Below, piece after piece: positions 7,184-47,972 of a stretch of DNA of 64,000 nucleotides. A model generated the notes under the pieces. The model saw only the letters and a list, made by a program, of their open reading frames with translations. It was not told the origin of the DNA and did not search any database. This stretch comes from Polytrichum commune (Eukaryota > Streptophyta > Polytrichopsida > Polytrichales > Polytrichaceae): assembly GCA_950295325.1 (NCBI GenBank), contig OX485803.1:20210001-20274000 (forward strand). The letters run 5' to 3'. A program made the translations under genes and the position numbers. The stretch's first letter is position 1; the number at the start of each line of letters is the position of its first letter.

Positions 7184-7262
7184 GGACGAGACTTGTATGT
7201 GAGCGGTGAGCGGAGAGCGGAGAGCAGAGAGTGGCGATTTGGAGAGCGGAGAGCAGAAATGG
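7184..7262. repeat. copy L left terminal inverted repeat with GAGCGGA minisatellite
   Basis: After the terminal bases, the sequence GTATGTGAGCGG leads into several imperfect 7-bp units (GAGCGGA, GAGCAGA). The opposite end of the element, reverse-complemented, shows GTATGCGAGCGG followed by the same type of units. Short iterated motifs at a TIR often are transposase-binding sites; that function is inferred. Confidence 0.8.
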
Positions 7263-7752
7263 TGTAAAAATAGGAAATATTCTATATTAAATTTAGAATT
7301 TCCTTAAAATAATACAAGAATATACTTAGAATATTCCAGATTATGCCAGAAATAGAAAAAATTTGGGACCTATTTCTGTGGAATGTGTAGGCACTAAATA
7401 AAATAAATGACTTGAATTTGAAATGGTCTGATTTAGTTTGGGAACCGTGAAGTGCAAAAATGATAGTAAAATTGTGATATAATAAATAAGTAGATGATGA
7501 AAACCAAGGATGATCCCAAGATGTATAGAGACACATGATACAGTTGAGTATTGTAATCCAACATTTTGAGTTGAATAAAAATAATCCATGCGATTGTATT
7601 TATTATATTATTGAGCTGACAATCTTAAATTATTCAATGAAAATCTTATATCACTTAGTCTATGTCGTACTCGATTAGAAACATGGATGAATAGGCACTA
7701 CTTCATCGATCTATCATGTTGATGGGAGAAAGGGACACTCCTAGAGTAAATC
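7263..7752. other. AT-rich terminal region without recognisable gene
   Basis: Between the left TIR and the transposase stop codon there is only AT-rich sequence, probably the transposase 3' untranslated region. It contains one of the few substitutions between the copies (A at 7410 versus the equivalent of C at 58070). Confidence 0.6.
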
Positions 7753-10700: not shown

Positions 10701-11549
10701 TCCCTGCATTGACTTGGCCTGTGACCGTGCGGCCGTATCACTAGCGGGTGGCAACTCAAATATGACGACACCATCAAACTCAGCAGGAAGGTACTCTACT
10801 CTCTCGTGTCTAATCACTGAGTAATCTAATTTTTTTAGAATATTTTTTTTTCCCGGCCTTCCTGCAAGTTGTTTTAGCAATGGAAATATGCTAACAGTCT
10901 CTTGGGACAAAGGATATACTTTAGGAGCATTCCCACTAACTATAACCTGAGGCGGGGGCTTGGTGGGACTGCCCTCTTCATCTGAAGAAAGTGTAATTAC
11001 AGACTGAACTCTAACGTTTTCTACAATTGGCGTGTCGAGACCGGGCTCGAGCTTGACCTTCACATCACGTGGCAGAGGAGTTTGAATGGTGCACGTAGAG
11101 GAATTACGAGGAGTGAGGATCTCAGTAGACGCAGCCATCTGAGAATCAGTGAGGCCATACACTCGGTAACTACCTGGAGGAAGACTCCAAAACAAGTTAT
11201 TGTTCTCATCTCGCTGCGATACCCGACCAAGGGTGTATGTAAGTTCTGACGTGACAACATCAAAAATATCCTCGTCAACAATAATAGTATCCTCTCTGAA
11301 GCCGAACCGAATACTCAGACGTTGGGACGTCACGTAAGCTAGACCGTCCTCTTGCATCCGAAAGGTAACTGGGACTCTCACACCATCTGCATAGAGGACA
11401 GCCAACCCCAAGTCTCCAATAGCAGGAATATGAGCCATGATGAGGGGAATGAGCCCTTGCGGCAAGATGGAAATATGAAAGAGGATTCTAAACATTGTGG
11501 GCCATCTATATATTACAAATGGGCTGCCAACGACAACGACATGATCCAC
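7753..11549 (-). CDS. Mutator-like transposase, two exons, intact
   Basis: Exon 1 is 11549-9333, a 95-bp GT-AG intron is 9332-9238, and exon 2 is 9237-7753. Together they give 1,233 residues with the frame preserved (FMTG joined to KFTEGE). An N-terminal linker with acidic SSDEE is followed by a Cys/His zinc module (CNNKEC, FVCKVC, CGAK, GTHDHP) of WRKY-GCM1/FLYWCH type. The MULE catalytic core follows: first aspartate in HVYDSTY, second in FMADSAQANWNAV, then the C-x-x-H of CQFHW. A C-terminal SWIM zinc finger (CTC...CKH, residues about 1165-1188) completes it. It would cut and join the element's ends in the nucleus. An alternative start is MAHIPAIG, 37 codons downstream. The divergent gene at 17617 and the repeats between may share a regulatory region. 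Confidence 0.9.
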
Positions 11550-11978
11550 ATGATGGATGAACTCTGAACGAAAACTTCACTAATATTTTCAATATGGAAA
11601 CAGCCGCCCTTGGGTCTAAAAGTGATGGGTAACGCTGTCACGATATATATAAGTACAGCGTGCAAGTCATGGTAGACATTCTACTCGACAAGCAATTAAA
11701 TTTGATTATTTGGCGCCGACTTAAAGCATGATTCATAACTAGGTCTAGAGATAGACTTGACGTTTCAAGACAGGAATAGAACGAATGACAAAGACCCAAT
11801 TGGGCATTAAATATAGGACTGTCCCTCGTGCGAACACTTGTATAAGATCTCGTGATACTCAGCTCCTTTGTTTTAGAATCATAAGTTATGGACTCTCGAG
11901 TGCCGTAAGATGTGTTCGGTTCAAGGGAGGATTTTGGGAATGTTGGAGTAGACATGCTCTGGAAGGGTAATACCTGAC
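11550..11978. other. upstream region of transposase, no gene recognised
   Basis: Non-repetitive AT-rich sequence upstream of the minus-strand transposase start. It probably contains its promoter. I see no convincing coding exon. Confidence 0.5.
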
Positions 11979-12176
11979 ATGCAAAATCATATCAAGAGAA
12001 GGAAAAAGAGAGGGAAGTTGTATTTCAGTAGCACTAAGGCATTGAAGACAAGTAGAATGGGAAGGAAGAAGGCACAACACGAAAGATACGAGACAAATGG
12101 AATTAACAAAGTTTCCCTCCCAAACGTAGAACATCTTGCCAGAAAGGTGTGTAAGGTAAGGGTCAATTTGAATTAA
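11979..12176 (+). CDS. small basic ORF, paralogous to the ORF at 12793
   Basis: A 65-codon ORF begins MQNHIKRRKKRGKLYFSS and continues with TKALKTSRMGRKK. I do not recognise a family. The stretch KR-K/R-basic, FSS, SRM, followed by a basic segment and RY, is repeated in the ORF at 12793 with recognisable DNA similarity, so the two derive from one duplicated sequence. It is very basic and could be nuclear or nucleic-acid binding, or simply a relic exon. It is identical in copy R (51800-51997, minus strand). Coding status is uncertain. Confidence 0.35.
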   Translation: MQNHIKRRKKRGKLYFSSTKALKTSRMGRKKAQHERYETNGINKVSLPNVEHLARKVCKVRVNLN

Positions 12177-12792
12177 AATTGAAAATGCAGTGGAGCAGTT
12201 ACTTAAGTTAGTCATGATCATATGCCAATCCAAATTAGATATATTAATAACAAACATGAGGCTGGATGCCGAGTGACGTACTTATAAATACACCAGAGAC
12301 CACGTGAACCATTTAGTGGATATAAGGGACACCCTAAAGTAAAGTGTTTCTTTTGGAGTGGAAGATTGAAATGGGCAAGGGAAGAGCATTAACCTTTAAG
12401 GAGAAGCTAGAATAAGTTAGTTTAGTTGGAAGAGTATCGTCAAGGTATGGCTATACAAAATATTTCTTCTAATTAGTTTAGTTTGAATTATGTATTATCA
12501 TTTGTACTATCATTTTTATTTTTATAAAACATGATATTCTTCATTTTTAGATTACTTCTGAATTATTTCTATAAATGTTATTAGACATCCGTGTCCATTC
12601 TTTTAATGTTCATTTTTATGATTCCTTATATGTTTATAGCAACTTGACTGTAATCAAAACATATCGACATTATGTGAAAAAAATTATGGGATGGAATATT
12701 AGTGTGGATGTAATACAGGCGAGACACATACATTGATAGAGTGATGTTCACATAGGAGGGAAGTGTAGAATTTGTGAAGCCGGTTCAGTTAC

Positions 12793-13098
12793 ATGACAGG
12801 GTCCTCGCCGATAGAGTTAGTGAAACCAAAGGCGAAGAGGAGGAGGAAGGCATTTTTCTCAAGCAGGAAGCAATTAAGGGCATCTAGGATGAGACAACCG
12901 AAACAACGATATGATAGCTTAAACAGCACAGTCAAGGCATTGGAATTCTCCCCAGACCGCACACGGTCAAGGTCTCGTATACGGAGAAGCCAGACTCACA
13001 GTGGTGAAGACATTGCTAGCAAGGAAGCTGGAGTGGGTACGACCAGACAAGTGGAGATATCACATGATCTATCGAGAATTTGCGAGACCCAGGTATGA
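12793..13098 (+). CDS. small basic ORF, possible exon of an unrecognised gene
   Basis: A 101-codon ORF begins MTGSSPIELVKPKAKRRRKA and contains FFSSRKQLRASRM, an RS-rich segment (RTRSRSRIRRS), and ends ...ICETQV. A good splice donor (CAG/GTATGA) lies at its end, so it may be a 5' exon. It shares its central motif with the ORF at 11979. Function is unknown. The conserved open frame in both element copies is uninformative because the copies are nearly identical. The equivalent in copy R is 50878-51183 on the minus strand. Confidence 0.4.
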   Translation: MTGSSPIELVKPKAKRRRKAFFSSRKQLRASRMRQPKQRYDSLNSTVKALEFSPDRTRSRSRIRRSQTHSGEDIASKEAGVGTTRQVEISHDLSRICETQV

Positions 13099-13649
13099 AC
13101 CTCAAGTCGATGTTAACATATATGCACTAGAAATTAGGGGTTGTATTCGTGAGCTAGAGAAGGCAACAAGTGTGGGCCCGTTGAAGCACTCGACATCACA
13201 ATGAGACCGTCACAAGTGGAAGGGAACAAGACTGCCGCGGCAGTAGTCTACCATCGTTCCCCGCATTACAACGGACCTCTGAACTAGGCTTGCAGGGTTG
13301 CAGCCACGATTTGGAGCGGGGGAGTGACTCGAGGGAAGGGCAGTGGTCGCCCCGTGGAGAGGTTTGAGGTGAGAGCCCTAGGGGATGAAATTTGAACCTC
13401 GCAAATGACTTTAGATGGCTGGTTTAGGGTTGGCAAAGGGCTCCTTAGTGAGGTATGAGGTGAGAGCTGGATGATCCTTAGTAAGGTTCAAGGTGAGAGC
13501 TGGGGCGGCAGAAATTTTGGTGGCTTTGTAGGGTGGCTGGATGCTCTTAGTGTGGTTCGATGTGATAGCTTAGGGGCCAGAGATGAGAGGTGATCATATG
13601 AATTTTGGTGGCTGGATGGTCATAGTGAGGTTCGAAGTGGAAGTTGAAG

Positions 13650-13716
13650 CGGGCGGTGCGGTGCGGTTCGGTTCGGTTCGTTCGTTCGTTCGTTTCGTTT
13701 CGTTTCTTTCATTCTT
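13650..13716 (+). repeat. graded microsatellite leading into the satellite
   Basis: The tract drifts stepwise from GCGGT units to TCGGT, then TCGT, then TTCGT, before the sequence TTCTTCAGCTTTCTTTTTCA that precedes the first satellite unit. A comparable layout (a different microsatellite, then the same lead-in) occurs before the second array at 16230. Confidence 0.8.
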
Positions 13717-13729
13717 CAGCTTTCTTTTT

Positions 13730-15180
13730 CAGCATCCTTAGTGAGGTTAGAGGTGAGAGCTGGGGCAGAAATGTAAGGTTATTATCTGATTTTTGGTGGC
13801 TTCCTAGGGTGGTGGATGGTCCTTAGTGAGGTTAGAAGTTAGAGCTAAGGGCACTGTCGGATCCGACAGACCCCTAGGGGCAGATATGCGCACCTCGCTT
13901 TTTATTTTCGGGAGGTTAGAGGTGAGAGCTAGGGGCAGAAATGCGAGGTTATTATCTGATTTTTGATGGCTTTCTAGGGTGGTTGGATGGTTCTTAGTGA
14001 GGTTAGAAGTTTGAGCTAGGGGCACTGTCGGATCCGACAGACCCCTAGGGGCAGATATGGACACCTCGCTTTTGATTTTCGGGAGGTTCAAGGTGAGAGC
14101 TGGGGGCAGAAATGCGAGGTTATTATCTGATTTTTGGTGGTTTCCTAGTGTGGCTGGATAGTCTTTAGTGAGGTTAGAAGTTAGAGCTAGGGCATTGTTG
14201 GATCTGACAGACCCCTAGGGGCAGATATGGGCACCTCGCTTTTGATTTTCAGGAGGTTAGAGGTGAGAGCTAGGGGCAGAAATGCGAGGTTATTATCTGA
14301 TTTTTGATGGCTTCCTAGGGTGGTTGGATAGTCCTTAGTGAAGTTAGAAGTTAGAACTAGGGGCACTGTCGGATCCGACAGACCCCTAGGGGCAGATATG
14401 GGCACCTCGCTTTTGATTTTCAGGAGGTTCAAGTTGAGAGCTGGAGGCAGAAATGTGAGGTTATTCTCTGATTTTTGGTGGCTTCCTAGTGGCTAGATGG
14501 TCCTTAGTGAGGTTAGAAGTTAGAGCTAGGGGCACTGTCGGATCCGACAGACCCCTAGGGGCAGATATGGGCACCTCGCTTTTGATTTTCGGGAGGTTCA
14601 AGGTGAAAGCTGGGGGCAGAAATGTGAGGTTATTCTATGATTTTTGGTGGCAGCCTAGTGTGGTTGGATGGTCCTTAGTGAGGTTAGAAGTTAGAGCTAG
14701 GGGTACTGTCGGATCCGACAGACCCCTAGGGGCAGACATGAGCACCTCGGTTTTGATTTTCGGGAGGGTCAAGGTGAGAGTTGGGGCAAAAATGTAAGGT
14801 TATTATCTGATTTTTGGTGGCAGCCTAGTGTGGCTGGATGGTCCTTAGTGAGGTTAGAAGTTAGAGTTAGGGGCACTGTCGGATCCGACAAACCTCTAGG
14901 GACTGATATGAGCACCTCGGTTTTGATTTTCGTGAGGGTCAAGGTGAGAGCTGGGGCATAAATGTAAGGTTATTATCTGATTTTTGGTGGCAGCCTAGTG
15001 TGGCTGGATGGTCCTTAGTGAGGTTAGAAGTTAGAGCTAGGGGCACTGTCGGATCCGACAGACCCCTAGGGGCAGATATGGGCACCTCGTTTTTTATTTT
15101 CGGGAGGTTAGAGGTGAGAGCTGGGGGCAGAAATGCAAGGTTATTATCTGATTTTTGGTGGCTTTCTAGGGTGGCTAGAT
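13730..15180 (+). repeat. about 170-bp satellite array with palindromic core, array 1
   Basis: Eight successive units have the core at about 13859, 14030, 14200, 14371, 14540, 14711, 14881 and 15051, a period of 169-171 bp. Each unit contains the 16-bp perfect palindrome CTGTCGGATCCGACAG (degenerate in the units at 14200 and 14881), then CCCCTAGGGG, then a conserved purine-rich body. The units are not open reading frames with recognisable products. The array sits between two divergently oriented genes. The period is close to a nucleosome repeat. The palindrome could bind a dimeric protein; the ParB-domain product of the adjacent gene is one candidate (inference). Confidence 0.95.
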
Positions 15181-16003
15181 TGTCGCAACCCTTGCTAGTC
15201 CCCTTAAAAATCTTGCCAATTCGCATTTCTAGCATAGGTTACGAGTACTAACCCTTCGCATACCGCCAAGCTAATGGTTAGCTCCTCCTACCCCGGACCA
15301 TATAGTTCATAGGAGGGGAACCAACCTTCCTACTTTGCTTTCGGGACTCACCCCTTAATCGGTAACCCATTCCCAAATGTGGACTTCCATCGATGGAAGT
15401 CCAATCCCATGTTGATCATCGCGTTGCCGGAGCAACACTACAACAACCCGAACCATACTAGGCAACTATGGCCTCACAATGGGCCAAAGCCCAATGAGGC
15501 CGTGCCGTTCGGCCTCGGGTGGGTGAGGCCACACCACCTCAGCCATATAAGCCTCTAGGACTCTACGAGGGGCCCCTACCCCACCGTCAACCAACCTCTT
15601 GTCTCTCTACCAAGAGTTGGGGCCAAGTAGACATTTTCCTTTAGCTGTTGGGCCTAGAAGCCCCCAACAGCTTCAGACCACCATAACTTTCTTGTATGAT
15701 TTTTGATTCCAACAACCAACCACTCCATCTTCATCTACGCTTCACGTAGATGCCGATGGACCCCTCACTTGACCCATTCATGCAAGTATTGACGACGTTA
15801 TGCCTGTTTGAACCTTGGCAGTCCCGGGAATGACTCCCAGGCAATGCTCGACCAGGGCGCTGTCCCGCGACAGCGCCCCACTCAAATGGCCATAACTCCT
15901 AGCTCACACCTCCGATTGAGGTGTTCTTCAGCTTTCTAGAATCACCACGCCATGAGCTACGCATAGCTCATGGCCTTAGTCTTGTGCCTCCTAGTCTCCG
16001 AGG
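15181..16003 (-). repeat. truncated solo-LTR-type element, family B, inverted
   Basis: It begins TGTCGCAACCCTTGCTAG, the reverse complement of the right end of the family B copies at 18760-19732 and 41373-42344. It follows that family for about 820 bp and loses similarity shortly after CTCCTAGTCT, so about 150 bp of the other end is missing. The left flank TAGAT has no partner because of the truncation. It interrupts the satellite array and is present at the same site in copy R (47973-48795). Confidence 0.85.
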
Positions 16004-16030
16004 GTGAGCGGCGTCTGTAGGCTGCGAAGT

Positions 16031-16069
16031 CTGTGTGAGCGGAGCGGCGAAGTATGTGAGCGGCGAACC
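16031..16069 (+). repeat. internal sequence resembling the element's own termini
   Basis: Next to the truncated LTR the sequence contains GTGTGAGCGGAGCGGCG and then GTATGTGAGCGGCG. The 12-mer GTATGTGAGCGG is identical to the one at the element's left end (7195-7206). This may be the remnant of another copy's terminus left by a rearrangement that also truncated the LTR. It is too short to be sure. Confidence 0.45.
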
Positions 16070-16105
16070 CATAACCCTTGCTTCAAACCCACTAGGCATC
16101 CTTAA

Positions 16106-16229
16106 AGAAAGAAAAAGACGAAGGAGAAGGAGAAGGAGAAGGAGAAGGAGAGAAGGAGAAGGTGAAGGTGAAGGTGAAGGTGAAGGTGAAGGTGAAGGTG
16201 AAGGTGAAGGTGAAGGTGAAGGTGAAGGT
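16106..16229 (+). repeat. GAAGGA/GAAGGT microsatellite
   Basis: A GAAGGA-type tract changes to 12 perfect GAAGGT units at 16158-16229. Copy R has 11 units (47753-47818, as ACCTTC). This single-unit change is the only length difference I find between the shared parts of the two giant copies. Its Glu-Gly repeat translation is a by-product. Confidence 0.95.
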
Positions 16230-16259
16230 GCGTTTCTTCTGCTTTCTTTTTCATCGTCC

Positions 16260-17196
16260 TTAGTAAGGTTAGAGGTGAGCGTTAGGGGCACTGTCGGATC
16301 CGACAGACCCCTACTCCTATTGGCAGATATGGGCACCTCGCTTTTTATTTTCAGGATGTTTAGGGTGAGAGCTGGGGGGTGGAGGTTTAGGGTGGCTGGA
16401 TGGTCCTTGTGAGGTTAGAGGTGAGAGCTAGGGGCACTGTCGGATCCGACAGACCCCTACTGACAGATATGGGCACCTCGCTTTTGATTTTCGGGAGGTT
16501 TAGGGTGAGAGCTGGGGGTGGAGGTTTAGGGTGGCTGGATGGTCCTTGTGAGGTTAGAGGTGAGAGCTAGGGGCACTGTCGGATCCGACAGACCCCTACT
16601 GACAGATATGGGCACCTCGTTTTTTATTTTCGGGAGGTTTAGGGTGAGAGCTGGGGGTGGAGGTTTAGGGTGGCTGGATGGTCCTTGTGAGGTTAGAGGT
16701 GAGAGCTAGGGGCATTGTCGGATCCGACAGTCCCCTTGGGGCAGAAATGTGCACCCGAATTTTTTATTTTTATTGGACTTTTTGGTAGGCCAGATGCTCA
16801 TTTGGACAGGTATTAGTTGGGGGTTAATGCACGTTAGTGAGGGTTTAGTCATGTTTAGATGCTCTTAGTGTGGTTCGAATTGATAGCTAGGGGGGGATTT
16901 AGAGGTGCTCTATAATCTGTTTGGCCTTTAAGGGTTTGGGATGCTCTTAATGTGGTTCGATTTGATAGCTAGGAGGGGCACAAACTAGAGGTCAGATTAT
17001 AGTGGAGAGAAACAGGGCAGATTTGCTAGCATATTATGTGAATTCTGGTAGATTATGTGGGTGGCCGAAAGCTCCCAATGAGGCTAAGGTTAGAGGTAGG
17101 GGTCTGAAATGTGTTTGTTAGCACCTGAATATTTGTGGCTGGCTTTAGCTTGTGAGGTATGATATGGAAGCCCAGGGGCACTGTCGGATCCGACAG
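16260..17196 (+). repeat. palindrome satellite array 2 and diverged higher-order repeat
   Basis: The core palindrome recurs with GGATCC at about 16296, 16442, 16581 and 16720 (periods 139-146 bp, shorter than array 1) and once more at 17186. After 16720 the unit changes to a longer one of about 466 bp. It contains TTGGTAGGCCA and GTGGTTCGAATTGATAGCTA and is repeated, diverged, after 17186. The last palindrome extends to 18 bp (ACTGTCGGATCCGACAGT) and lies about 420 bp upstream of the ParB/methyltransferase start codon. It could therefore act in that gene's regulation; that is inference. Confidence 0.9.
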
Positions 17197-18759
17197 TCCC
17201 CTAGGGGCAGAAATGTGCACCCAAAATTTGATTTTTGTTGGACTTTTTGGTAGGCCAAATGCTCATTCGGGCAGGTATTAGTTGGGGGATTGTACACGTT
17301 AGTGAGGGTTTAGTCATGTTTAGATGCTCTTAGTGTGGTTCGAATTGATAGCTAGGGGGGGATTTAGAGGTCAGATTATATTTGAAAGAAACAGGGCATA
17401 TTTGCTAGCATATAATATGATTTCGGGTGGATTTTGGGGGTAGCTGAAAGCTCACAAGAAGGCTAAGGTTAGAGGTAGGTGGATTTTGTGGGTGGCCGAA
17501 AGCTCCCAATGAGGCTGAGGTGAGTTTGGTTGTATTATCATGTAAATATTGGGTGGCATTGTTCATCCTATTGGTTCTTATGTTGGTAAGTAATTGATTC
17601 TCAGGAGATTGTTGAGATGGTTGCGGATGGAGAGTCATTGGATGTTGGGGTTCGCATTGGTGCTGGATCATCCCTTAGTGTAGAGGAGCATATGGAGCAA
17701 GGGTCTCCGTTGTCATGTGCTGAACCTACTGGGCTTACACTTGGTAGTGGCGAACCGCAGACACCCGGGATGACACTCACCGGCTCACCACCAGAATCGG
17801 ATGTGGGTGTTCGTGTAATGGAGTATCGGATTCGCCACAATTTAAAAAAAGATAGTTGTTCAGTTGTTGAGGGCATGAGGATACAACCAGTTGAAAAGTC
17901 CTCTATGAGAATCCCTCTCTGCAGGTTGATTCACATGCCATTGGTTCGGCCAACTCTCCGCAGCGACGTTACAAAGCTCATGGCAGCATTTCAATTTGGA
18001 TACCGAGCTGGGTCTGCCATTTTTTATGTGTCTACTGCAAATGAGAGTGGAGAGAATCGATTCATTTCTGCCAAAGACAAGCGTGAATGGGGAGAGCTAT
18101 GGAATGCAGAAAATGATAAGTTTGAGTTTTTTTTGCGCTCGGATAAGGACTTGATGAGCCTTAGTGGATGCATGTTCTTTGTGTATGATGGTAACCACCG
18201 CTTGCTAGCGTGGAAGGAGTGTATTGAAACAGATCACAAGGACGATGCACTTTGGTATGAGAAACATGGTTGCCCAGAATGTGTCATCCTCGACACAACG
18301 GGTGGGCGTGGAGACGTCCTTAATGCAATGCACGACATAAACAAGTAAGTTTGTTATTTTTTTGAACATTTTTTCCTTCATTTTTTTATTTTCATCTAAT
18401 GCCATTTATCTCAACCGCAACAGGGCTAACCAGACTGCGCACGTTAAGACTAGCCTTGTTCACACTCTACACCGCATCCAAAAATACGGTTCGTATGATC
18501 TTAGCTACTACCAGCCATTGTTGACCGAGGAGCAATTCCAAGCGTGCAAGAGCAAAGGCCCCAAGAGCCCTTGGTACCCGCTGACCCAGGATCTTATGGT
18601 GTCCTTCATTTTCAATGTAAGTCACTCCAAATTCATCAAGCTCCTACTTCGCATTCATTACTTTTAGTCATGGTCTAACAATTTAGAATACATGTCCAGC
18701 AAGAGATAGCCGATGCGGTAGATGAGGCAGCCCAAATCTTCAAGGAGGAAGTGCCTCTA

Positions 18760-19732
18760 TGTCGCGCACCTCTCCATGAGGAGTGCCCGAAACACCATGG
18801 GCACAAGGGGGACCCCGGAGTGACACCCGGGACTTGTGGCGCCGTTGGTGAGAGGGCCCAAGTGATCCTAGTGTGGGTGAGGGCCCCGGGCGTTGGGAAC
18901 GCCTCCCACCCATGAAGACTAGGAGGCACAAGGGGAAGGCCATGAGTTATGCGTAGCTCATGGCGTGGTGATTCTAGAAAGCTCAAGAACACCTCAATCG
19001 GAGGTGTGAGCTAGGAGTTATGGCCATTTGAGTGGGGCGCTGTCCCGGGACAGCGCCCTGGTACAGCAGTGCCTGGGAGTGATTCCCGGGACTGCCAAGG
19101 TTCAAACAGGCATAACGTCCTCAATACTTGTCCGAATGGGGCAAGTGAGGAGTCCATCGGCATCTACGTGAAGCGTAGATGAAGATGGAGCGGTTGGTTG
19201 TTATGATCAGACATCATAAAAGGAAGTTATGATGGTCTGAAGCTGCTAGGGGGTTCTAGGCCCAGCAGCTAAAGGAAAATGTCCACTTGGCCCCAACTCT
19301 TGGTAGAGAGACAAGAGGTTGGTTGACGGTGGGGTAGGGGCCCCGCGTGAAGTCCTAGAGGCTTATATGGGTGAGGTGGTGTGGCCTCACCCACCCGAGG
19401 CCGAACGGCACGGCCTCCATGGGCATTGGCCCATTGTGAGGCCATAGTTGCCTAGTATGGTTCGGGTTGTTGTAGTGTTGCTCCGGCAACGCGATGATCA
19501 ACATAGGATTGGACTTCCATGGATGGAAGTCCATATCGAAGAAATGGGTTACCGATTAAGGGGTGAGTCCCGAAAGCAAAGTAGGAGGGTTGGTTCCCCT
19601 CCTTTGAATTAATGGTCCGGGGTAAGAGGAGCTAACCATTAGCATGGCGGTATGCGAAGGGTTAGCGCTCGTAACCTTTGCTAGAAAAGAAAATTGGCAA
19701 GATTGCTAAGGGGGCTAGCAAGGGTTGCGACA
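18760..19732 (+). mobile_element. 973-bp solo-LTR-type element, family B, shared by both copies
   Basis: It starts TGTCGCGCACC and ends GGTTGCGACA. It is flanked by CTCTA at 18755-18759 and 19733-19737. TG...CA ends, imperfect inverted termini and a 5-bp duplication fit an LTR retrotransposon LTR, with no internal region. It lies inside exon 3 of the ParB/methyltransferase gene and brings in-frame stops. The same insertion with the same flanks is at 44250-45222, so it predates the duplication of the giant element. The sequence is unusually rich in perfect hairpins. Confidence 0.9.
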
Positions 19733-20502
19733 CTCTAGATGAGCAGTCAGGGAAGGGGTTGAGTGATGTATTGGACGTTGTAATTAAGAAGACGTCTGAG
19801 GAACTTGGGCACAAGTTCAACAAACAACAGTCGATCGCAAACCCTGCCCTTGGAAAACAGTTCCTAGATGAGGTAATCTCCTTGTCATCCAATTTGGAAT
19901 TATGTTTTTCGTATTGCTTGCATTCTTTGCAGCATTTTTTCAGTAAACATTCTAAAATTTACTTGGCCTTCTATTTTGATTGCATTTGTTTCAGATTACT
20001 AGGCATTATAGCGCCCACCATTCTCAAAAGATTGAGATGACATTGGAGAAATTGCAACTCATTGCCACTGCCGCTGTCGAGCCAGAGTATAAAGCCCGTT
20101 GGCTTAAGTGGTGGAACAGTGGAAGTTTCAATCGTGAAGCTATCCGGTTTCCCAAAAGTCCTGCAAGCGAGGACAACTTGAAATCTTGGCTCAATAAAGC
20201 AGCGTTCTGGGCAGGGGTACGTCTATCCTATTTTCTTTGCTTACCTTTCAATTCTTCATTTTGTGCCAATTCTCATGTTCGCCTTGAATTCCTTCACAGC
20301 TAGAGGATGCTGCGGTCAAGGAGTTACCGGATATACTAAGTGCATTGGGTGGGCTTGACGGAGACATGGAAGTTGATTCGTTGCCGGATTACTTGGAGAA
20401 GTGGCGAATTTGCCTTTGGGATAAGGCGTTCATTGGTCACTTCTCAGGGTCAGATATCTATGGAAAGGGGACGTGGTGGAAGGATGTCAAAGGCGCTGAC
20501 AA

Positions 20503-23500
20503 TGTGGGAGTCCAAATTCGACGGAAATACGGAAATACGGAAATACGGATTCAATTTCCGTATTTTACCTTGCTTATCTGAGGATAATAGGGTCTATTAG
20601 GACAAAATTAATGGTACTAGGAAATAGAGTAGTCTAACCCCGCCTTGTGCGGTAAAACGACTCTAAATAAGTACTATGACCGGTCCGTCAAATAGGATGG
20701 GCGGACCATGCAATCATGGTCCAAACCCTTGGTCCGGACCAAGTGACGGACGCGCCAAGATTACCCAACGGCCCGGAAGTGGCGGTTACAACGGGCCTTA
20801 TGGCGGTTGGGGGAAAAGAGAGCCGTTGGTGAAAAGGTTAGTAAAACCGTTGGTGGGAACCGCCGGAAAACGGTTGGTAACCGTTTTCCGTTAAACCAAA
20901 CGGTAACAGGGGAAGGAAGAGGGAGGAAGGATATTTAAGGGTCCCTTCCTTCTCCCTCACACTCTTTTCTGGAAAAAGGCAACCTGTTGAGAGAACGAGT
21001 GGTGAGGTGTTCCTTCTTTTGAGCCGCCAGCAGTTGGATTGCTGGGACTCAGCACTTTTCAGTCACCGGCAGTGGGCTTGCCGGGACTTTGTGGCACTTA
21101 GACGGAAGAGAAGGACTCCGGAAGAGAGAGGGAGAGGTTGCAAGCCAGAAAGGATGAGAGGAGAGGAAAATGCCGGAAGCACGGGAAGAGGATCAGCGGG
21201 AATCCATCCCGATTCCGCTGAAAGCCCTCACCCCTGCAATTCCGAGGGAGGATAGAGAGCTGCAGGAGCTCGCGGAGGATCTCAGGGTCATGGGTTGTGC
21301 GGGATTGCTCTCCAAACCCTGGAATCTCAGAGCGGAAGATACCCTCCGCGAGTTTAAATTCGAGAGGGGAAATCAGTGGCTAGGCACAAAGAGGAAGGAT
21401 CCGGAACATTGGACTCCGGATACGTGGAACAGGGTCTACGGGTTTCCCAGGGGAATCACGGAGGGGTGGGCCGGCCGCCGCGACGGCCTGTTCGCCGGGA
21501 AATTCAGAGGGGACGCGGATCCAAAGGACGGGTTTCACCCAGGGAACTGCCGGAATATTAGGGAGCGGAGAGTGCTAGAGTTTCTCCTGCCCATTCTCAA
21601 TCCGGACAAGCTGAAGCGGATTAGCCTCACCATGGCTAACACGCTGTTTGGTGCAATGTCCGGAGTCCGGCCGGTGAATTGGGGCCTGATCATCCAGGAG
21701 ATAGTCGGACGGGCCCTCCCCCATATTGGCCGGAAACCCTCCTTCCTCTCCCCCTTCATTTTGCACCTCTACCAGCATTTCGACTGCATCACGGCAGAGG
21801 AGGAGGACCTGCTCACAATAGCGGCGGATGAGGTCACCTACAAGCTGCTCCCGGAAGCCGGAGACGTCGAGACGGAGACCTCCAGCGACCCTATTCTTCC
21901 GGAAGCACCTCCCTCGTCACCCGGAAGCCCGCCACCAACCGTCTCGAGGCCACTCTTTCCCCCTCCCCCGCACCAACATCCGGAAGCCGGACCCAGCCGG
22001 GAGACCCCATGGCGAAATGTGGACCTATCCACTTGGGACTTCCCGGAGAATCCATTCAAGCGGTTCCAGGAGGGGATGGAGGACCTCAAGACCCAGTACT
22101 ACCGACTGGAGCACATCATCAAGGGGGCGAACCATGCTCTGGACGACTGCGGACCCGGAAACATCCTCCGGGAATTGGCAAAGAGGGCGGACCGGAAGGA
22201 GCTGGAGCAGGCCAAGACGGAGAACGCCCACCTCACCGCACAGGTAGCGGCGATGACCCAGGAGCTGAGTCAGAAGAGTGAGGAGATCCGGAAGTATCAT
22301 GCGGAGCAGGCAGTGCTCTTCAGCCGGATCCGGGAGCTGGTGGGTCATCCGGCGGAGATCGTGAACAAGGCACATCTCTACGACCGGATGATGGAGTCAG
22401 GAGAACCGGCTTCCGCCAGGCAGACCCTCCCCATCCTCGTGAAGTATTCACGGACGATGAAGGATCTCCTGGCGGAAATCCAGAGGGTGGTCCCGCCAAG
22501 CGGAACACCGCGGAGAGTGCTCTATCCGGGTCCGCCAGGGTCACCAACCGGAACCCTCTACGAGGTGGTTGGTGAAGTAGCCCTGGTTCAGAATCCGCCG
22601 GCCTCTGCAGGACCCAGCCAGCAAGGAGGCGGCTCTCGGCCTGGTCATTCCGGAGGGGCTCCGGAAAGGGTCCATTCTCCCCAGGTGAGGCGGAAGAGCA
22701 CCGGGTCGGTCCGATCCGGAAGGGGCCAGTCCCCTGTTCCGCGGAACTCGGATAGGTCCCGGACTCCGGATAGGGTTCGGACGCCGATCCGGCACCAGAC
22801 TTCCGATCGGGAGGCCACTCCGAGTAGGGGCAAGGCTCCTATGACCCACGCCTCGCCATCGTCTCCACGGGACTGCCAAGTGGTGAGTCCATTTCCTCCG
22901 CCACACTCGAGAGCGGCCTCCAACAGGGATCCGCGGACGGCTTCACTCTCGGGTGGACGGAATCCAGAGCAGGGCACCGGAAGCGATCCTTCTCCAGTCC
23001 GAAGCATCCGGATGGGGACAGCTTCCGGAACCCCAGGGACAGTCTCCGGGACACCAGGGACCGCTACCCCACGGACCGAGAGGGCAGCGGATTCGGAGGA
23101 CGAGGTTGCTCCGTCTCCGAACATGAGGAGGATGCTCACGCGGCTACAGAAGGCGTCGCCGGCCGGGGGCTCATCCGCCGTCAGCGGATTAGGGAGTCAC
23201 TCAAAGGAGGGATCGGCTCCGAAGAAGCACCGGTCTTCTTAATTAGGGGAGTGGCTAGATTGATTAGGAAGAAGGGAGGTAGGCAGGTAGGACTTAGGAG
23301 TTTTTGAAGACGATTAATAAAATTTTCCTTTGGTAGTGTCAGCGGAAAACCCGGATCTGGATCCGAGAAATCCGGGAGACTGGGGGTAGTTAGGGTTTTC
23401 TTGAGCGGCGGCCGCTTGGGCCGCCGCCCTCAGTTTAGGGATTTTTGAGCCTCTACTTAAGGCTGAATAAGGAGCTTGGGGGGGGTTCCTTCTCCATTGT

Positions 23501-24628
23501 TGTATTGTGGTTACTCCTACCCCGAATAAATGTCTTTGCTTCTCACCCCTTGACTTCTCTTGATTGATGTGTGTGTGAATGACCCGGAGATCGTTAGTGG
23601 AAGAGAAAGGGAGGGCATGAAGGATAGGAGTTCCGGATAGGACATGAGAGAGGAGACCCGGATTAGATCCGGTTACCGCCTTGTAGATCCTCTCTGAGTG
23701 TAGTGGGAGGGAAACCTCACTAATCCGGTAGGTTGGGTAACGTCTAGGTGGGATAGCCGCTGGGAAGATTGGGTGAGATCCGGAAGGAATCCGGACTTAC
23801 GCCAATCTGATCTTCTGAAGAGGTCCCACCGTCCTTAGACGGACCTGCCCGGATTAGTGGTACGGATCGCCTAGTTATCTCAGATTGAATAGAATCCAAG
23901 GTAAAGGTAGCCGGACAGATCCGTCGGACGGAGAAGGAGAGGTCCGGATCAGTAAGGATTCCGATAGGAGGCCACCTCCGGAGTGCAGTAGGAAGATATC
24001 CTCATTGTTCCGAATGCCTGGGTAACGTCCATGTGAGATAGCCGTCGTTAGGACTGGGCAAGATCCGGAAGGTGCCGGACTTACGCCATCCGACCTTCTG
24101 AAGAGGTCTCACAGTCTTTGGACGGGGTAATCCGGAAAGTGGTACGGGTCACCTACTCATCCCGTAGAGTTAGATCTCCGGTTGGAATCCGGACTCCTCT
24201 GGCCACTTTGGTCCCAAGAAACAATCCAGATCTCTCTGCGTGACCTGCCAGGACGGACCTGATCAATCCGGATTGGTTGTGAGGGAGTTTCCGGATTCTA
24301 ACTTTATCAAGGACGTCTTCACCGGAAGAAACCAATTATTCTAGAGGGTAGACGTAAAGGGGTGGGTAAGTATTATAAAGAGGACCTAGAAATAACATCC
24401 GGAGAGGTACCCTCCGGAAAAAGGCTAAGAATGTCCCCAAAGACCAAATATCCGGAAATTAGGATTTCCGGAAATTTGGCTAAGGAAGAAGAAATAAGCA
24501 GGTACGGAGAGTTTTAGACCTCCTACACTTCACAGAATCCCTGGACGATACTAAGGTCACCCGGAAATATCCGGATTTGGCACAAAAACCCGCCAATCCG
24601 GAACTTTTGGTGTTTGTGGGTTCCCACA
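20503..24628 (+). mobile_element. 4,126-bp TG...CA element with 5-bp duplication, copy L only
   Basis: Ends are TGTGGGAGTCC and GGTTCCCACA (inverted termini TGTGGGA). The target GACAA is duplicated at 20498-20502 and 24629-24633. Copy R has the empty site at about 43480. I cannot find a second copy of either terminus inside, so it is either a very long solo LTR or a non-LTR-flanked unit using the same chemistry. A TATTTAAG box near 20930, a 690-codon ORF at 21170-23242 and AATAAA motifs near 23317 and 23525 form a complete transcription unit inside. The whole element is dense in CCGGA/TCCGG. Confidence 0.88.
21170..23242 (+). CDS. 690-residue ORF of the 4.1-kb element, gag-like or plant-transposon protein
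   Basis: An ATG-started open frame of 690 codons, GC-rich and unlike its AT-rich surroundings. Residues about 1-240 form a globular region including NTLFGAMSGVRPVNWGL and LSPFILHLYQHFDCIT, reminiscent of the uncharacterised N-terminal domain of plant Ty3-type ORFs ('putative plant transposon protein'). A proline-rich segment follows at about 245-290. A predicted coiled coil lies at about 310-420 (ADRKELEQAKTENAHL, QELSQKSEEIRKYHAEQA). A long Ser/Arg/Pro-rich tail completes it. No zinc knuckle, protease or reverse transcriptase is seen. It may be a structural or regulatory protein of the retroelement; the family assignment is weak. Confidence 0.7.
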   Translation: MPEAREEDQRESIPIPLKALTPAIPREDRELQELAEDLRVMGCAGLLSKPWNLRAEDTLREFKFERGNQWLGTKRKDPEHWTPDTWNRVYGFPRGITEGWAGRRDGLFAGKFRGDADPKDGFHPGNCRNIRERRVLEFLLPILNPDKLKRISLTMANTLFGAMSGVRPVNWGLIIQEIVGRALPHIGRKPSFLSPFILHLYQHFDCITAEEEDLLTIAADEVTYKLLPEAGDVETETSSDPILPEAPPSSPGSPPPTVSRPLFPPPPHQHPEAGPSRETPWRNVDLSTWDFPENPFKRFQEGMEDLKTQYYRLEHIIKGANHALDDCGPGNILRELAKRADRKELEQAKTENAHLTAQVAAMTQELSQKSEEIRKYHAEQAVLFSRIRELVGHPAEIVNKAHLYDRMMESGEPASARQTLPILVKYSRTMKDLLAEIQRVVPPSGTPRRVLYPGPPGSPTGTLYEVVGEVALVQNPPASAGPSQQGGGSRPGHSGGAPERVHSPQVRRKSTGSVRSGRGQSPVPRNSDRSRTPDRVRTPIRHQTSDREATPSRGKAPMTHASPSSPRDCQVVSPFPPPHSRAASNRDPRTASLSGGRNPEQGTGSDPSPVRSIRMGTASGTPGTVSGTPGTATPRTERAADSEDEVAPSPNMRRMLTRLQKASPAGGSSAVSGLGSHSKEGSAPKKHRSS

Positions 24629-26657
24629 GACAACATTGTCAAGCGCTTAATTTTCCGGTAAGTTAGTTGGGCCATCTTTTGTTCTCATTTATATCAAACT
24701 AGTTGTTTTCTAAGTTGCTTATTGGCCTCACTCCTTGGTTGTGAAGGTACATCAAACACGAGCTTTTCAAGAAGAAGGCTTTGAAGAAGCTTCCTCCATT
24801 TCTGGATGCATGGTCGGATTCCTCTTCGCCCACCTTCATTTTTTCCCCGGCTCAAAAGCGCAACTTCTCCCTCCCGCATCTCCGCGAGTGTTGCTGGTAC
24901 TTGGAGTGTAAGAGGACGTGGCAGCCGGATGAGGAGGCGGCCTTGAAGATTCGGCTCTCCGGTGGAGAGCCACCTTCTCAAAGCGATGAGGTTGTTCTTC
25001 TAGAGAGTCAGCTTCCGGAGGCGGATGAGGTTGTTGCGACTCTCGATGAGCCCAACACTCAGAAGTCCAAGAGGAGGAAGCGTGCGACTCAAGACGAGTC
25101 TTCACTAAAGAAGCGCGCGAGGAAGCTGAAGACTGTGGAGGATGATCCCCCTGCTTCACCTGAGGCGGCAGTTGCATCCACTGCAACTCTTAGTCAAGTT
25201 CCTACTCTTTCCAGGCCGCCTCCTCCGCCCGTTCTTTCATCTGCTAGGCGTCCTCCAGTTGTTTCAGAATGCATCTTGAATGCCTCTATTCTTCATCAAC
25301 GTCGTCATTTTCAAGATGTTTCCAACTTCATTCTTTCTCTTCCACCCTCCTATCCGCGGAGAGCTCTAGGCGTTGCGAGGTCAGATGTGGGCATGGCTGA
25401 TCTTGTCATTGCCGACCTCCCGGAGAACCTGCCGGTACCCAATGTCTCCGATCCTTCCTATAGTGTGCCTTCCTGGAATGCATTGGATTCCGATTTTATT
25501 GGTGAACTCTTCGATTTCGCGGACGAGATCCTGCATGACGATGGAGCTCTCCTCCTCTTTCATCCAGATGACAATGGTGATTTCAGGGAGAGCATTGAAG
25601 ACCACTTCGCTGCTTTTGGGTTCACGATCTTCAAGGAGTGGCTGGGAGTCAACCGTCTTCGCCTACATTCAGCTAAGCATAAGGACAAGACCACCAACCT
25701 CTTCCAAGTTGTACTACTTGTTCATGCCACCAAAACAATTGGATCTGACCTTGATAAGCGGCCCCGGCACTCGTCATTTCGCCTTCGCGATGCCAATGAG
25801 CTCAAGGCTCTTGGCATTGAGCTCGACATGGATGATGCGATTATGAATTATACCGCAACTCCTCTCATGGACGGCTCCAAAGCTTGGCGTGGTCCCCGGG
25901 AGAAAGATATTTCTTTCATGTCCTCCTTGATCATGGCCACTACGGACATTGGACAGGTTGTGGTGGACATTAATGCAGGCGTTGGTATGTCCTAATTCAC
26001 TTGCCAACATATCCTAGTTTTCAATTTCTAAGTTTGTTTTTTTTTCCTTTGCTAACCTTTCCTCCGCAACAGGGACTTCTATCCATGCATGCAGGCAGCT
26101 TGGGCGCCATATCGTTGCTCTTGAGGAGGACGAGGACACCTTCAACCGTGTCCTTAAGCCACTTAAGAGTGTTCAGCCTACGGTGAAGGCTCCATCCATT
26201 GTTGTTGCTTCCACGCAGGCTTCACAAGGCACGCAGAAGAGGCCGCCGGCCTTGAAGCGATCGAGGCCAGAGCCCTCGCAGTAAGTGAGTATGATGACCT
26301 TCTTCGCTTATTTTCTTTGTCCATTCAGCTTTTACACTTTCCATCCTCTTTCTTACATTTATCGTGTTTTTTTTCAGACTTGGCGTTGGAGCGGATGTGT
26401 TGGGTACTCCCACCATGGGATTCACATTGCCTATCTATGCCCATGATATGGCGATGGTACTAGCGGCACAACCTTCTCCTACCGAAGCTAGTTCCCCGTC
26501 TCCACGTTATGACCCCCATGCCTTAGACTTCTTCGAGCATTCTGCGGAGGTGGATAATGAGTGCCATAGCTTAGATTCCACTTCAGATGAGGGCGGCCAT
26601 GAGGGTAGTATCTTTGGAAGTAGGGAATCTAGTAGTGACGACCTCATGGTTGATTGA

Positions 26658-27813
26658 TTTTGGGTTTGATTGATTTGTTGGTTTGATTTATCGGTATTTG
26701 GATTTATGAAGTGTTGTGTGGATTTCAATATTCCAATTATCTCATTGAATGCATCTTTTCGTTGTTCTCAAATCACGCTTCACTTGGTGGTCGTCATACT
26801 CCAAAGAGAATTTAGTCCACCATCTTCTCACAATCTTAACCGCTAGTCACAAAACAATGTAGCATCCACCCACTCCAATAAAAAGTTGTTGCCTCACACA
26901 CCTCCTCCTTGTTTCCTTGAATCATAAGTATTCAATAATACTTGTTGCACACCACCCAACACACTCCAATTCATACTACCCGCATTGCATTCTTCATTTT
27001 TGTTCACCATCTATAATGTTCACCCTCAAATGTTCACCCTCTATAAATGTTAACCCTCGGGAGTGGATCGAACTTTACATGTATAAAGGTGTTAACAGTT
27101 AACAATTATAAAATTACTTCTTTGAACAATATACAAATCTTAACATGTCCTAACTATAAGCAATTGTGAAGAGTAATTGTGAGAGAATATCATACACAAA
27201 ATTGCAAACCCAATCAAAACTTTATTCAATATCAAGTTTACAAATCATGGGTGAATTATGAATGTATTTCAGTCGTTAACATTTATAGAGTCAAATTTAC
27301 AAAGAAGGGAACACCGTTTTGTTAACAATTAACAGGTTTAACATTTATAGTGTGCAATATGTAGGGAGTAGAATAAAGTGAACGTTTGGAAATGGTTAAC
27401 ACTTATAGGTGTAACAGTAATAGAGGGTGGACTGTATGTGGAGAATTTTTTTCGCCAACCTCCTTCGTGTCACGTTCAAATAGTAAATATTATTTAATTT
27501 ACCGTAATATAAAATATAGTACACCATTTTGGTAATTATAATTGTGACGTCATAGTGATGTAAGCCCTAATTTTGTATTTTATTTTAATATTTCTATGTT
27601 TCAAAAATCTATTAACTTTATGAATAGGGAAATGTTACTTTATTTCCACGGTAATAGAGTCCATAACTCTCCAAAGTTTCTAAAAATAATTCAACATTTT
27701 TCCCTCAATCCCGCGGTTATAGGTGCAATTTCTCTCTCATTTCATGTCTCAAATTGAGTTCTCCGCTCTTCGGTCTTCGCTCTCCGCTCTCCGCTCGCAT
27801 ACTAACTTTCCCC
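26658..27813. other. 3' flank of the methyltransferase gene and right terminus of copy L
   Basis: AT-rich non-coding sequence. It contains several short iterations of TTCACCCTCTATAA and GTTAAC-type words near 26990-27430, some in inverted orientation. It ends in the GAGCGG-type terminal repeat at about 27755-27813 (as CCGCTCTCCGCTCGCATAC followed by TAACTTTCCCC). No gene is recognised. Confidence 0.7.
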
Positions 27814-30019
27814 GGCTTGATTAGGTTCATCAAGCGCAATTAGGCTAAATATGCTTGATTACATAGAATCAACCTTTATGAGTTTGGTTGTGTCTGAAAA
27901 TTTTCAAAATTAAAAGACATCACCCAAGGTATATTAAATTGTACAATTGTAATGGGAACTCACAAAAATTATAACCTCCATGCTAACGAGTACTTTGTCA
28001 TGCAATGTTATGAAATTGACGTTAAAATCTTGGAACCCATAAGGCTAATAAGGCTAAAACTATATCATGATGGCTTCAAACCAACTCAATCTTTAGAGTG
28101 GTGGAGTGCGGTAGCCTCCGTAATGTTTTTGGCTTCCAAGGTAATTACATGCTTTATTCACAGTTCCAATTCGGGAATGAAATCCTAATCAATTGTTTAT
28201 TTGCTAAGTGGAAGTGCACGGATATAATGGATTTAGGACATTGAAGGTGAAATGCAGTCAATATGGGATTTAAGAGAACTTCTCTTGTGATGCAACTGAA
28301 GTGAGCACATAGACATTTTTAATGGTACAGTTGCTTACATTAGTTTTGTTCTCCCCCGCTGAAGTTCCTCTTCTGCTAGCCTTGCTCTCGCCTGGAAGAG
28401 TTCAATCCAGCTTAAAAGGACTCTAATCAACATGTTCACTTAGCTACTCATCTTTGACTCCTTGTAAGTTTACATGTGAACCTACGTGACGTCGCTTTTG
28501 ATGACGAAGCCTAAGAAACGATGACAATCTGATGAGCAGTACAGAGGTACCTCCCTAGTCCAGGTAAACCACTGTCACCTGGACCCCGCATTTTCACATG
28601 CAATTAAATGTTGTGTCCCAGAATCTCAGATTATACCTGATAGCATTTGCCAATAACTAAGATTGTAGCCAAGAATCCACCTTCCTTCGGTTTGGATTTC
28701 TGCTCGGGCAACCATGGTCTACTTCCTCAAAGCCCACTTAATATTCATATCTAGAATGCTGCATTTAGAACCAAACTAGAAGGTGCAAGAAATTAGTTTA
28801 AGCCTCGTAAGTTTTAAGAACTGATTGCTTTTAGATTTCAGCATACGCCGCATACTGTGAAAGGAACATACGACTACGACTTGCTCTAGTTGGGCAGTCA
28901 TTTGAGTTGTGTGTTCATTTGAGTTACGTGTTCATCTTTCTCGATTTCTTTTGGAATTTGAGGTAAGTTCTCTAAATTCCTCAGATAATGTTCGGATAAT
29001 TTTTCTGCAGTCTTGAACTTGTAGGGTTATGGCCAATATAAGTCCATTTACACGTCCTCTCCTTTTGGGCTCATACAATTTCCTGGTCACCAGTCCTTGG
29101 ATTTAACCATTAACTTTCTGTTGTGTGTCTATATTGCTTCCTGTTGTTCTCCAGGTTCGATCAATGTTAAGTTTAGAGGAATAAATATCTGGTGAGATTA
29201 TATTTCTCCCGAGATTCTGGGTATAAGGTTTTTGCTGAGTTTGTAGTTTGACATTTCAAGGTCAGGCAAGAATCAACGTTCTTTATAGACCTAGATTACT
29301 GCGCATTTCTTTCAACCCTTTTCATTCCCGGAGTTGTGGGTTGCTTTATTCCTAAAATTCTAGAGTTTCCAAGTCCAGCCAGTTAGATGTGGACAACTTT
29401 TGGGTTTTCTTATGTAATTCAAACTAAGTTCAATGAATTCTGCCAGTGTAACTATAACATATGCAGCATACTAGAGAAGATTACTCATTGTTGATATTGT
29501 TATATTTCATCTTCACTAATGCCAAAAATGTGATTTCCACACCCGATTCAAGGAGGCCCGATTCTGGTTAGTCTAGTCTAGGACCACAAAGTTCTGTTCC
29601 GAGAGTGTCTCTAGATGGGTAGTCATTTGAGTTGTGTTTAGGGTATATGTGTGCACATTCTTGAGTTTTATGTGCAGGTGATGTTAGATCTTCGTATAGT
29701 AGCCCACTGACTGCTTCGCTTTATGAGTGTTATTTTGTGAGTCTTCTAACACCTCTGACTTTTGCACTTGATGCGCACCCTCGTTCTCGATTCCACTGGC
29801 TCCAGCCGAAGTCGAGTAGACATCCAGTGAAGTCCTAGTAATACTATAGTCATCATTCACAGACCTGGTAGTAATGTTCTAGTCAACCATTTCTGTAGTG
29901 GTAGTCAACTAGTTCTAAAGTTCCTCAGCACTTCAGGACTTGCTTATGCATATATATGGAACTCTGTAACTATGTTCATGTCTGATTAATGGAATGCAAT
30001 GCAAGAGGGTCTTGGTGCA
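27814..30019. other. spacer segment with no recognised gene
   Basis: Roughly 2.2 kb of single-copy sequence between copy L and the CACTA-associated gene. Short ORFs are present but show no family features. TAGTC/GACTA words become frequent after about 29810, which may mark the upstream edge of the CACTA-type element. Confidence 0.5.
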
Positions 30020-38876: not shown

Positions 38877-39322
38877 ATGGTTACAACTCGGAGCAAACAT
38901 TATCGTTCTCCGTCTCCGGCATCATCACAAGATCGATCCTCGGATCTTTTGAACATTGAACCAGTGGTAGCACCCGACGAGGTTTTTTAGCCTACTTCGG
39001 CGTGGGGGACTGTCACTCGGTCTCACGTCCATTGGGTGGGATCATTTGACAAGATGAAAGAGGGGACCCGAGGCGGCATCCGAGACCAATTTTCTGGTCG
39101 AGCGGGGACCATTTCCATGTAAGATTGGAAAATTCGGTTCAAGACATGGATGACGGAGAAGCATCAACGGAATACCAATTTTAATGATTGATATGCGTTT
39201 GAGCTTCTGCCCCAGCATTTGCAGCATGAGGCTCTCCAGACTTATGAGCAGTGGACGGAGGCTCATTGGATGGAGTTGCGTCAGGTTGAGTGGTACTGGG
39301 AGACTCGGGTTGAATTGGTATC
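38877..39322 (+). pseudogene. gag N-terminal half of the split Ty3 element
   Basis: It begins ATGGTTACAACTCGGAGC (MVTTRSKHYRSP), a typical plant gypsy gag start, and runs for 148 codons to WETRVELVS at the copy R border. In-frame stops lie near 38988, 39120 and 39188. The matrix-capsid-like part contains DWKIRFKTWMTEKH and FELLPQHLQHEALQTYEQW. The last codons coincide with the 10-bp target duplication, and the frame is taken up without shift by the minus-strand gag at 7183. The strand is opposite to the rest of the element because of the inversion. Confidence 0.92.
39313..39322. repeat. 10-bp target-site duplication, right half (AATTGGTATC)
   Basis: Reverse complement of 7174-7183. It abuts the GGGGAAAG end of copy R. 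See the left half. Confidence 0.9.
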
Positions 39323-47722: not shown

Positions 47723-47752
47723 GGACGATGAAAAAGAAAGCAGAAGAAACGC

Positions 47753-47870: not shown

Positions 47871-47972
47871 TTAAGGATGCCTAGTGGGTTTGAAGCAAGG
47901 GTTATGGGTTCGCCGCTCACATACTTCGCCGCTCCGCTCACACAGACTTCGCAGCCTACAGACGCCGCTCAC

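Follow-up and report, generated by a model that had tools for sequence, protein, structure and literature searches.

A 64-kb window of the Polytrichum commune genome (the whole stretch analyzed, contig OX485803.1, positions 20,210,001 to 20,274,000; 46% GC, no N) contains one DNA transposon twice, in inverted orientation. The element is about 16.5 kb long without inserts and its two copies, A and B, are 99.9% identical. At both places, a transposase-like gene and a cargo gene are located on opposite strands inside the terminal inverted repeats. Judged by sequence comparison, the C-terminal part of the cargo protein is a beta-class N6/N4 DNA methyltransferase domain with statistically real homology, the N-terminal region is best read as ParB-like, and the non-coding DNA between the two genes holds an array of palindromes. 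We propose, with about an even chance of being right, that this is a cut-and-paste transposon resembling Mutator-like elements (MULEs), with a divergent accessory gene for a protein of the ParB-methyltransferase type of about 1,100 aa that recognizes the element's own palindromes. Transposon cargo of the ParB/methyltransferase type is known, and has been little studied; the MULE-like host element and the candidate palindromic site are new.

Cargo gene and methyltransferase domain

The cargo gene is a real gene. It extends on the plus strand from a start at 17617 to a stop at 26655-26657 and is divergent from the transposase-like gene. The first-pass annotation had proposed an eight-exon model of 1,096 codons, which we reproduced; the count is valid only with two mobile insertions (18760-19732 and 20503-24628) removed. 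The exon pieces then total 3,291 nt, corresponding to 1,097 codons with the stop or 1,096 aa, with GT-AG borders at 7/7 introns and no internal stop in any of the ten pieces. The parts of the gene and its insertions are as follows:

17617..18616, plus strand: cargo exons 1-2 (17617-18344, 18424-18616), which encode the N-terminal region; this contains DGNHRLLAW and is ParB-like at the level of this motif only
18700..20502, plus strand: cargo exon 3 (18700-18759 and 19738-19872, with an insert between), all of exon 4 (19995-20216) and the beginning of exon 5 (20300-20502), encoding the middle of the protein, which was assigned to no family
24634..24657, plus strand: last part of cargo exon 5
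24747..26657, plus strand: cargo exons 6-8 (24747-25984, 26073-26280, 26378-26657), predicted beta-class N6/N4 methyltransferase domain, with DLPE in the place of motif IV and VVVDINAGVGTS as motif I
18760..19732, unstranded: 973-bp TG..CA insertion resembling a long terminal repeat (LTR), which splits exon 3 in both copies and has the duplication CTCTA
20503..24628, unstranded: 4,126-bp TG..CA insertion that splits exon 5 in copy A only, with the duplication GACAA and one open reading frame (ORF) of 694 aa
41373..42344, unstranded: member of the 973-bp LTR-like family inserted into exon 6, the methyltransferase exon, of copy B, with the duplication CCGGC

Since insertions interrupt the exons, neither copy can make the whole cargo protein by ordinary reading, while the transposase gene of copy A is still open. 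Any activity of the cargo protein would thus need to come from other copies. The exon-3 insertion is common to A and B and therefore predates the two-copy state.

The methyltransferase query consisted of exons 6-8 joined (575 aa). The match appeared only once these exons were joined at ordinary introns; with the unspliced exons, Pfam was empty up to E 1 and PDB yielded nothing relevant. The joined exons matched PF01555 at E 1e-5 (26.1 bits, just under the cut-off of 26.7), the CcrM model at E 1.9e-7 and six methyltransferase families in PHROG, of which phrog_3008 was the best (E 1.7e-7). The PDB matches were CcrM (3.4e-4), DpnA (3.9e-4 and 4.1e-4) and, weakly, MboIIA (0.09, on the motif IV side). 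The order of motifs in the domain, with the motif IV position preceding motif I for binding of S-adenosylmethionine (SAM), is that of the beta class, and the SAM motif is kept.

A tblastn search with the 234-aa domain retrieved 135 phage records when matches up to E 10 were allowed. The alignment covers 80% or more of the query in 21 of them (best E 8e-5), and the alignments to phage methyltransferases span 96-97% of the domain. Eight of the matches were examined: five are genes of fusion length (H2, H5, H7, H8, H17) and three are short methylases (H3, H9, H18), the best E-value belonging to the short methylase H3. All five fusion-length genes match both PF01555 and ParB_N in Pfam, and three of the five exceed the ParB_N cut-off. 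We also built a profile from ten phage genes of 357-444 aa. PF01555 is above the cut-off in 10/10 of these, and ParB_N is listed for 8/10 (E 9.7e-8 to 0.0079; four above the cut-off), the exceptions being L009 and L013. One fusion, L001, matched 850 phage records, and in 286 of these the match extends along 80% or more of its length. Against the methyltransferase part of the profile the cargo scored 33.9 bits, as compared to 5.6 bits for the best of 2,000 shuffles. Thus, the N4/N6-type methyltransferase named in the first-pass annotation is supported by PF01555, PHROG, the CcrM model, PDB and the phage profile.

The 973-bp LTR-like family occupies five places, namely 18760-19732, 41373-42344, 15181-16014 and the copy B mirrors of the first and last. 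Its members are 92-95% identical to the member at 18760-19732, except for the identical mirror of the latter, and a palindrome, GCTGTCCCGGGACAGC, is found within 3/5 places. The idea that the family represents introners was dropped, as the exon insertions bear plain 5-bp duplications. The 4,126-bp insert lacks long direct repeats at its ends and contains just an internal repeat of 184 bases at 74%, and its 694-aa ORF gave sub-threshold Pfam matches only, to several coiled-coil families.

Element copies and transposase-like gene

The setting of the cargo gene in a DNA transposon, also claimed in the first-pass annotation, is evident from the position of both genes inside the terminal inverted repeats at two places. 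The element and its second gene are:

7183..27814, plus strand: element copy A, 20.6 kb including inserts, with ends TGGACGAGACTTGTATGTGAGCGG and (as reverse complement) CGGGGAAAGTTAGTATGCGAGCGG, where the homology to copy B ends
39322..58297, minus strand: element copy B, inverted relative to A, from the alignment of the two copies
7753..11438, minus strand: transposase-like gene, 1,196 aa, two exons (11438-9333, 9237-7753), ATG at 11438, open in copy A

Over the four blocks in which the two copies align (16,522 bases in total), there are 5 mismatches and a single gap. The terminal inverted repeats are identical at 35/43 positions, and the homology between the copies stops at these repeats. 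Three insertions are private to one copy, each with its own 5-bp duplication. A 9-bp target duplication, ATACCAATT, is found at 7175-7183, at the left (outer) end of A, and in inverted form at 39313-39321, at the inner end of B; the remaining two flanks do not match it. Such a pairing would be expected if the DNA had inverted between two copies already inserted, or if a transposition had used the ends of two copies.

The transposase-like gene has a second in-frame ATG at 11495, and an insert at 55690-57188, with the duplication CGGCC, interrupts it in copy B. The whole 1,196-aa protein matched nothing in Pfam, even at E up to 10. Its C-terminal piece matched SWIM at E 0.019 (15 bits, under the cut-off of 19.6), and a transposase model, IS256, matched its central piece at 15.6 bits (E 0.0061; cut-off 150). 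IS256 and MULE transposases are related. The D, D-CxxH and E residues were placed by eye. A tblastn search of the transposase core against plasmids gave a single match, to a replication protein, at E 0.09. The first-pass annotation had named the element a MULE. The 9-bp duplication and the terminal inverted repeats agree with this; the SWIM-like motif and the sub-threshold IS256 match point weakly the same way, and the whole protein had no match in Pfam. Because of the duplication, the SWIM-like motif and the IS256 match we classify the element as MULE-like, which is not the same as a proven MULE.

N-terminal region and palindrome array

The first-pass annotation had placed a ParB/sulfiredoxin fold upstream of the methyltransferase. 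Residues 191-199 indeed read DGNHRLLAW, and VVVDINAGVGTS follows the DLPE position as described. The joined exons 1-2 hold MFFVYDGNHRLLAW, and the pattern [DEG]G.HR..A arose in 27/20,000 shuffles of the two blocks. In PHROG, the full N-terminal block matched just one family, the ParB-like phrog_1033 (E 0.51); with shorter cuts this family ranked first of two (E 0.23 and 0.1). All of these matches are weak. The motif of the earlier claim is thus present, and the fold was not confirmed. Since the phage fusions themselves match ParB_N weakly or not at all, a missing Pfam match is not strong evidence against ParB. The published proteins share the layout of the cargo protein, and for this reason ParB is the best reading of the N-terminal region, although not a proven one.

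ParB-like proteins typically bind palindromes, and palindromes are abundant upstream of the cargo gene:

13743..17371, unstranded: non-coding repeat zone between the divergent genes, with a 170-bp array (13743-15184, 8.5 units), a 139-bp array (16256-16736, 3.4 units) and a lone unit
13855..17195, unstranded: 13 copies of the palindrome TGTCGGATCCGACA in copy A, upstream of the cargo gene and within 3.4 kb, starting at 13855, 14026, 14196 (2 mismatches), 14367, 14536, 14707, 14877, 15047, 16292, 16438, 16577, 16716 and 17182
46787-50121: 13 mirrored copies of TGTCGGATCCGACA in copy B

Twelve of the 13 palindromes in copy A are exact and one has 2 mismatches. TGTCGGATCCGACA is the commonest perfect 14-base palindrome of the window, and its 24 exact copies are all located inside the two elements. 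With up to 3 mismatches allowed, the window contained 29 matches, of which only three, each with 3 mismatches, fell outside the 26; 100 shuffled windows contained 1.89 matches on average and 6 at most, never 29. GGATCC is contained in each exact palindrome. A search of viral contigs with the 18-base palindrome core gave 0 matches.

The palindrome appears better conserved than the DNA around it. Among the 13 units of copy A, 2/182 bases were changed in the palindrome as compared to 124/1,222 in the aligned flank (Fisher 2.5e-6); the difference was 0/84 versus 77/570 (1.2e-5) when one unit of the first array was taken with the five others, and 0/56 versus 52/380 (4.8e-4) with one unit per class, although these P values overstate independence because the repeat units share descent. 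The repeat zone has a CpG observed/expected ratio of 0.48, the lowest of six regions, and 24/26 CpGs are kept in the palindrome as compared to 19/26 in the flank consensus. Probes made from the flanks gave 350 matches. In the first 32 kb, 47 of these indicate locations other than the 13 sites; among the 40 of these 47 that were listed, some are shifted sub-repeats inside the array and others are older copies free of the palindrome. Older left-flank copies without the palindrome, about 72-82% similar, are located at 13421-13577 and 16837-16893.

Based on these results, TGTCGGATCCGACA stands as a good candidate site for binding by a protein, and as a candidate self-recognition site of the cargo protein. 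The strongest alternative, which is plausible at somewhat less than an even chance, is that the transposase or a host factor binds the palindromes, which would then be unrelated to the cargo protein and serve a bidirectional promoter as its promoter or enhancer repeats. The location of the palindromes between two divergent genes is consistent with this explanation. An array placed beside the cargo gene fits self-recognition, which is not decisive against this alternative.

Relatives and role of the cargo protein

The first-pass annotation had regarded cargo of this type as not standard in a MULE. The implied novelty was not upheld: the available text of PMC12477816 reports a 1,104-aa accessory protein with ParB-like and N4/N6 methyltransferase parts in the Ectocarpus element Sola1-1_Ec32, and cites relatives in red and green algae. 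By that published description, the moss and Ectocarpus systems agree in the methyltransferase domain, in a ParB-like region (by motif in the moss), in protein length (1,096 and 1,104 aa), in the location on the strand opposite to the transposase and in the large size of the DNA transposon. They differ in the transposase, which is MULE-like here and Sola1 in Ectocarpus, and in the palindrome array, which the available text does not describe for Sola1-1. The same text suggests that such proteins bind and modify their own element, naming no target. It also describes nested insertions in giant elements as generally common to copies, suggesting that the elements kept moving, and the two moss copies resemble the Ectocarpus elements in this respect. 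Titles and opening lines of abstracts from the literature, with few subscription papers among them, together with the available text of PMC12477816, described neither such cargo in a MULE nor a palindromic cis-site for such a protein. A survey of N6-methyladenine in eukaryotes (PMC12695648) does not mention ParB in its available part. Scans of viral and genome contigs with exact 8-residue patterns confirmed no relative.

Fusions of ParB to predicted DNA methyltransferases are frequent in phages, according to the accessible part of PMC12704722. The phage ParB-N6/N4 fusions, such as those of Streptococcus phage Javan244 and phage NatCom_3357, have the domain order of the cargo protein, and their methyltransferase aligns with it over its full length. 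The phage proteins differ in being shorter (357-444 aa in the ten used) and intron-less, with DPPY or SPPY as motif IV and a ParB part that is not alignable to the cargo.

A possible functional parallel is provided by VANDAL elements, which are MULEs. In the portions available of PMC5735166 and PMC10398659, the anti-silencing VANC proteins of Arabidopsis VANDALs are described as binding short motifs that are often tandem-repeated in non-coding transposon DNA. Like VANC, the cargo gene is located beside a transposase gene in an element with short, tandem-repeated motifs in its non-coding DNA, here as candidate targets. Unlike VANC, for which these texts mention no methyltransferase, the cargo protein contains such a domain, and neither DUF1985 nor DUF287, which VANC proteins bear, was among its Pfam matches for exons 1-2, exons 6-8 and the scanned pieces of exons 3-5 (all but the 60-nt first part of exon 3 and the 24-nt last part of exon 5).

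By analogy with VANC and VANDAL, we suggest that the ParB-like region of the cargo protein would recognize the palindromes in the non-coding center of the element, and that the protein would thereby accumulate on element copies. The bound protein may regulate the two divergent genes and keep the copy accessible or marked. The methyltransferase domain may modify the element DNA or, given DLPE, remain as a SAM-binding module that grips DNA. A more specific version of this proposal, which we put forward as rather doubtful, is a partition-like self-recognition in which a phage-derived ParB-methyltransferase would load on the palindromes as on a parS-like array and coat, cluster or mark the element, thereby countering host silencing. 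In ParB-parS systems, palindromic parS sites are bound by the protein, which uses a nucleotide in clamping the DNA.

Several results weigh against recognition and marking of the element by its own cargo protein. The place of motif IV reads ADLPEN in the cargo, as compared to DPPY (nine) or SPPY (one) in the ten phage proteins; thus, the catalytic pattern (D/N/S)PP(Y/F/W) is replaced by DLPE in the aligned place. With the aromatic residue and one proline lost, catalysis is doubtful unless other family members have the same change and are active. The first-pass annotation had suggested that the cargo may protect, mark or cluster element DNA; with DLPE, marking by methylation is less certain. The ParB fold is unproven: the N-terminal block matched nothing in Pfam, NCBIfam or PDB, and its tblastn search against phages gave no relevant match, only one tail protein at E 0.6. 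The ParB part of the phage profile scored -0.2 bits on the cargo, with 80 control sequences higher, and hhalign of the N-terminal block against the phage alignment gave a probability of 0.15%. Structure models made from single sequences, with no homologue alignment, had mean predicted local distance difference test scores of 33.1 and 34.5; with this low-scoring and hence uninformative N-terminal model, Foldseek returned 353 matches at E up to 10 and 0 at E up to 0.001, and ParB-like was named in none of the best 50 of the 353. For the palindromes, the eight 170-bp units alone showed no significant difference (2/112 changed bases versus 36/760 in the flank; Fisher 0.11), and CpG retention inside the 170-bp array was 14/16 in both palindrome and flank. 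Since the units were picked through the palindrome and some older left-flank copies lack it, the conservation may partly reflect ascertainment, and any protein that binds the palindrome may instead be the transposase or a host factor. Finally, since A and B have the exon-3 insertion in common, no intact cargo gene was available in cis while this lineage spread.

Two further explanations concern the cargo gene itself. It is unlikely that the protein actively methylates adenine (or cytosine N4) of the element DNA, for example in the GATC of the palindrome, as a mark that protects the element or times its transposition. The beta-class order with the SAM motif kept, the adenine methyltransferases as nearest models and the GGATCC in each exact palindrome are consistent with such self-marking, and the replacement of DPPY by DLPE argues against it. 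GATC is not clearly enriched, with 14 sites versus 11.7 expected in the repeat zone and 13 versus 19.4 in the cargo gene, and the GATC of the palindrome was rejected as a sign of enrichment. We also find it improbable that the gene is a captured passenger that hitch-hikes without serving the element, as in Pack-MULEs. The gene-breaking LTR-like insertion in both copies shows that the second copy arose without needing the gene in cis, but the frame is otherwise open across eight exons, prokaryote-type domains would not be typical of a host transcript, and the same architecture is reported from algal transposons, in Ectocarpus in another superfamily (available text of PMC12477816). An assembly artefact, in which one locus or two haplotypes were joined head to head, would explain why only 5 bases differ, but is very improbable given the different flanks and the copy-specific insertions with their own duplications.

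Another methyltransferase gene is located next to the element. A gypsy-type retrotransposon adjoins it at 539-6924 on the minus strand, in separate open pieces, and contains a C5 cytosine methylase ORF at 3535-4632 (PF00145, E 2.9e-12) between the protease-like and reverse transcriptase pieces. The pieces matched protease (E 0.0057) and reverse transcriptase (E 3.7e-5), both below the cut-off, RNase H (1.3e-35) and a zinc knuckle (7e-4, just below the cut-off). This retrotransposon recalls KnitGypsy-Dnmt3 of Klebsormidium, described in the available text of PMC5890265 as a retrotransposon carrying a C5 DNA methyltransferase. The moss cargo gene resembles KnitGypsy-Dnmt3 in being a DNA methyltransferase gene on a mobile element, and differs from it in that the latter is a retrotransposon with a C5 enzyme and a different mechanism. 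A 151-aa ORF at 59368-59823 on the minus strand has a weak AT-hook match (E 0.61), and Rfam and tRNA scans gave no matches.

The conserved palindrome beside the cargo gene offers a concrete DNA sequence for binding and methylation tests. If the assignment holds, cargo of the ParB/methyltransferase type is extended to a MULE-like element. If the proposed self-recognition is true, it would bring a protein type of bacterial viruses into the arms race in which transposons face silencing by their host.

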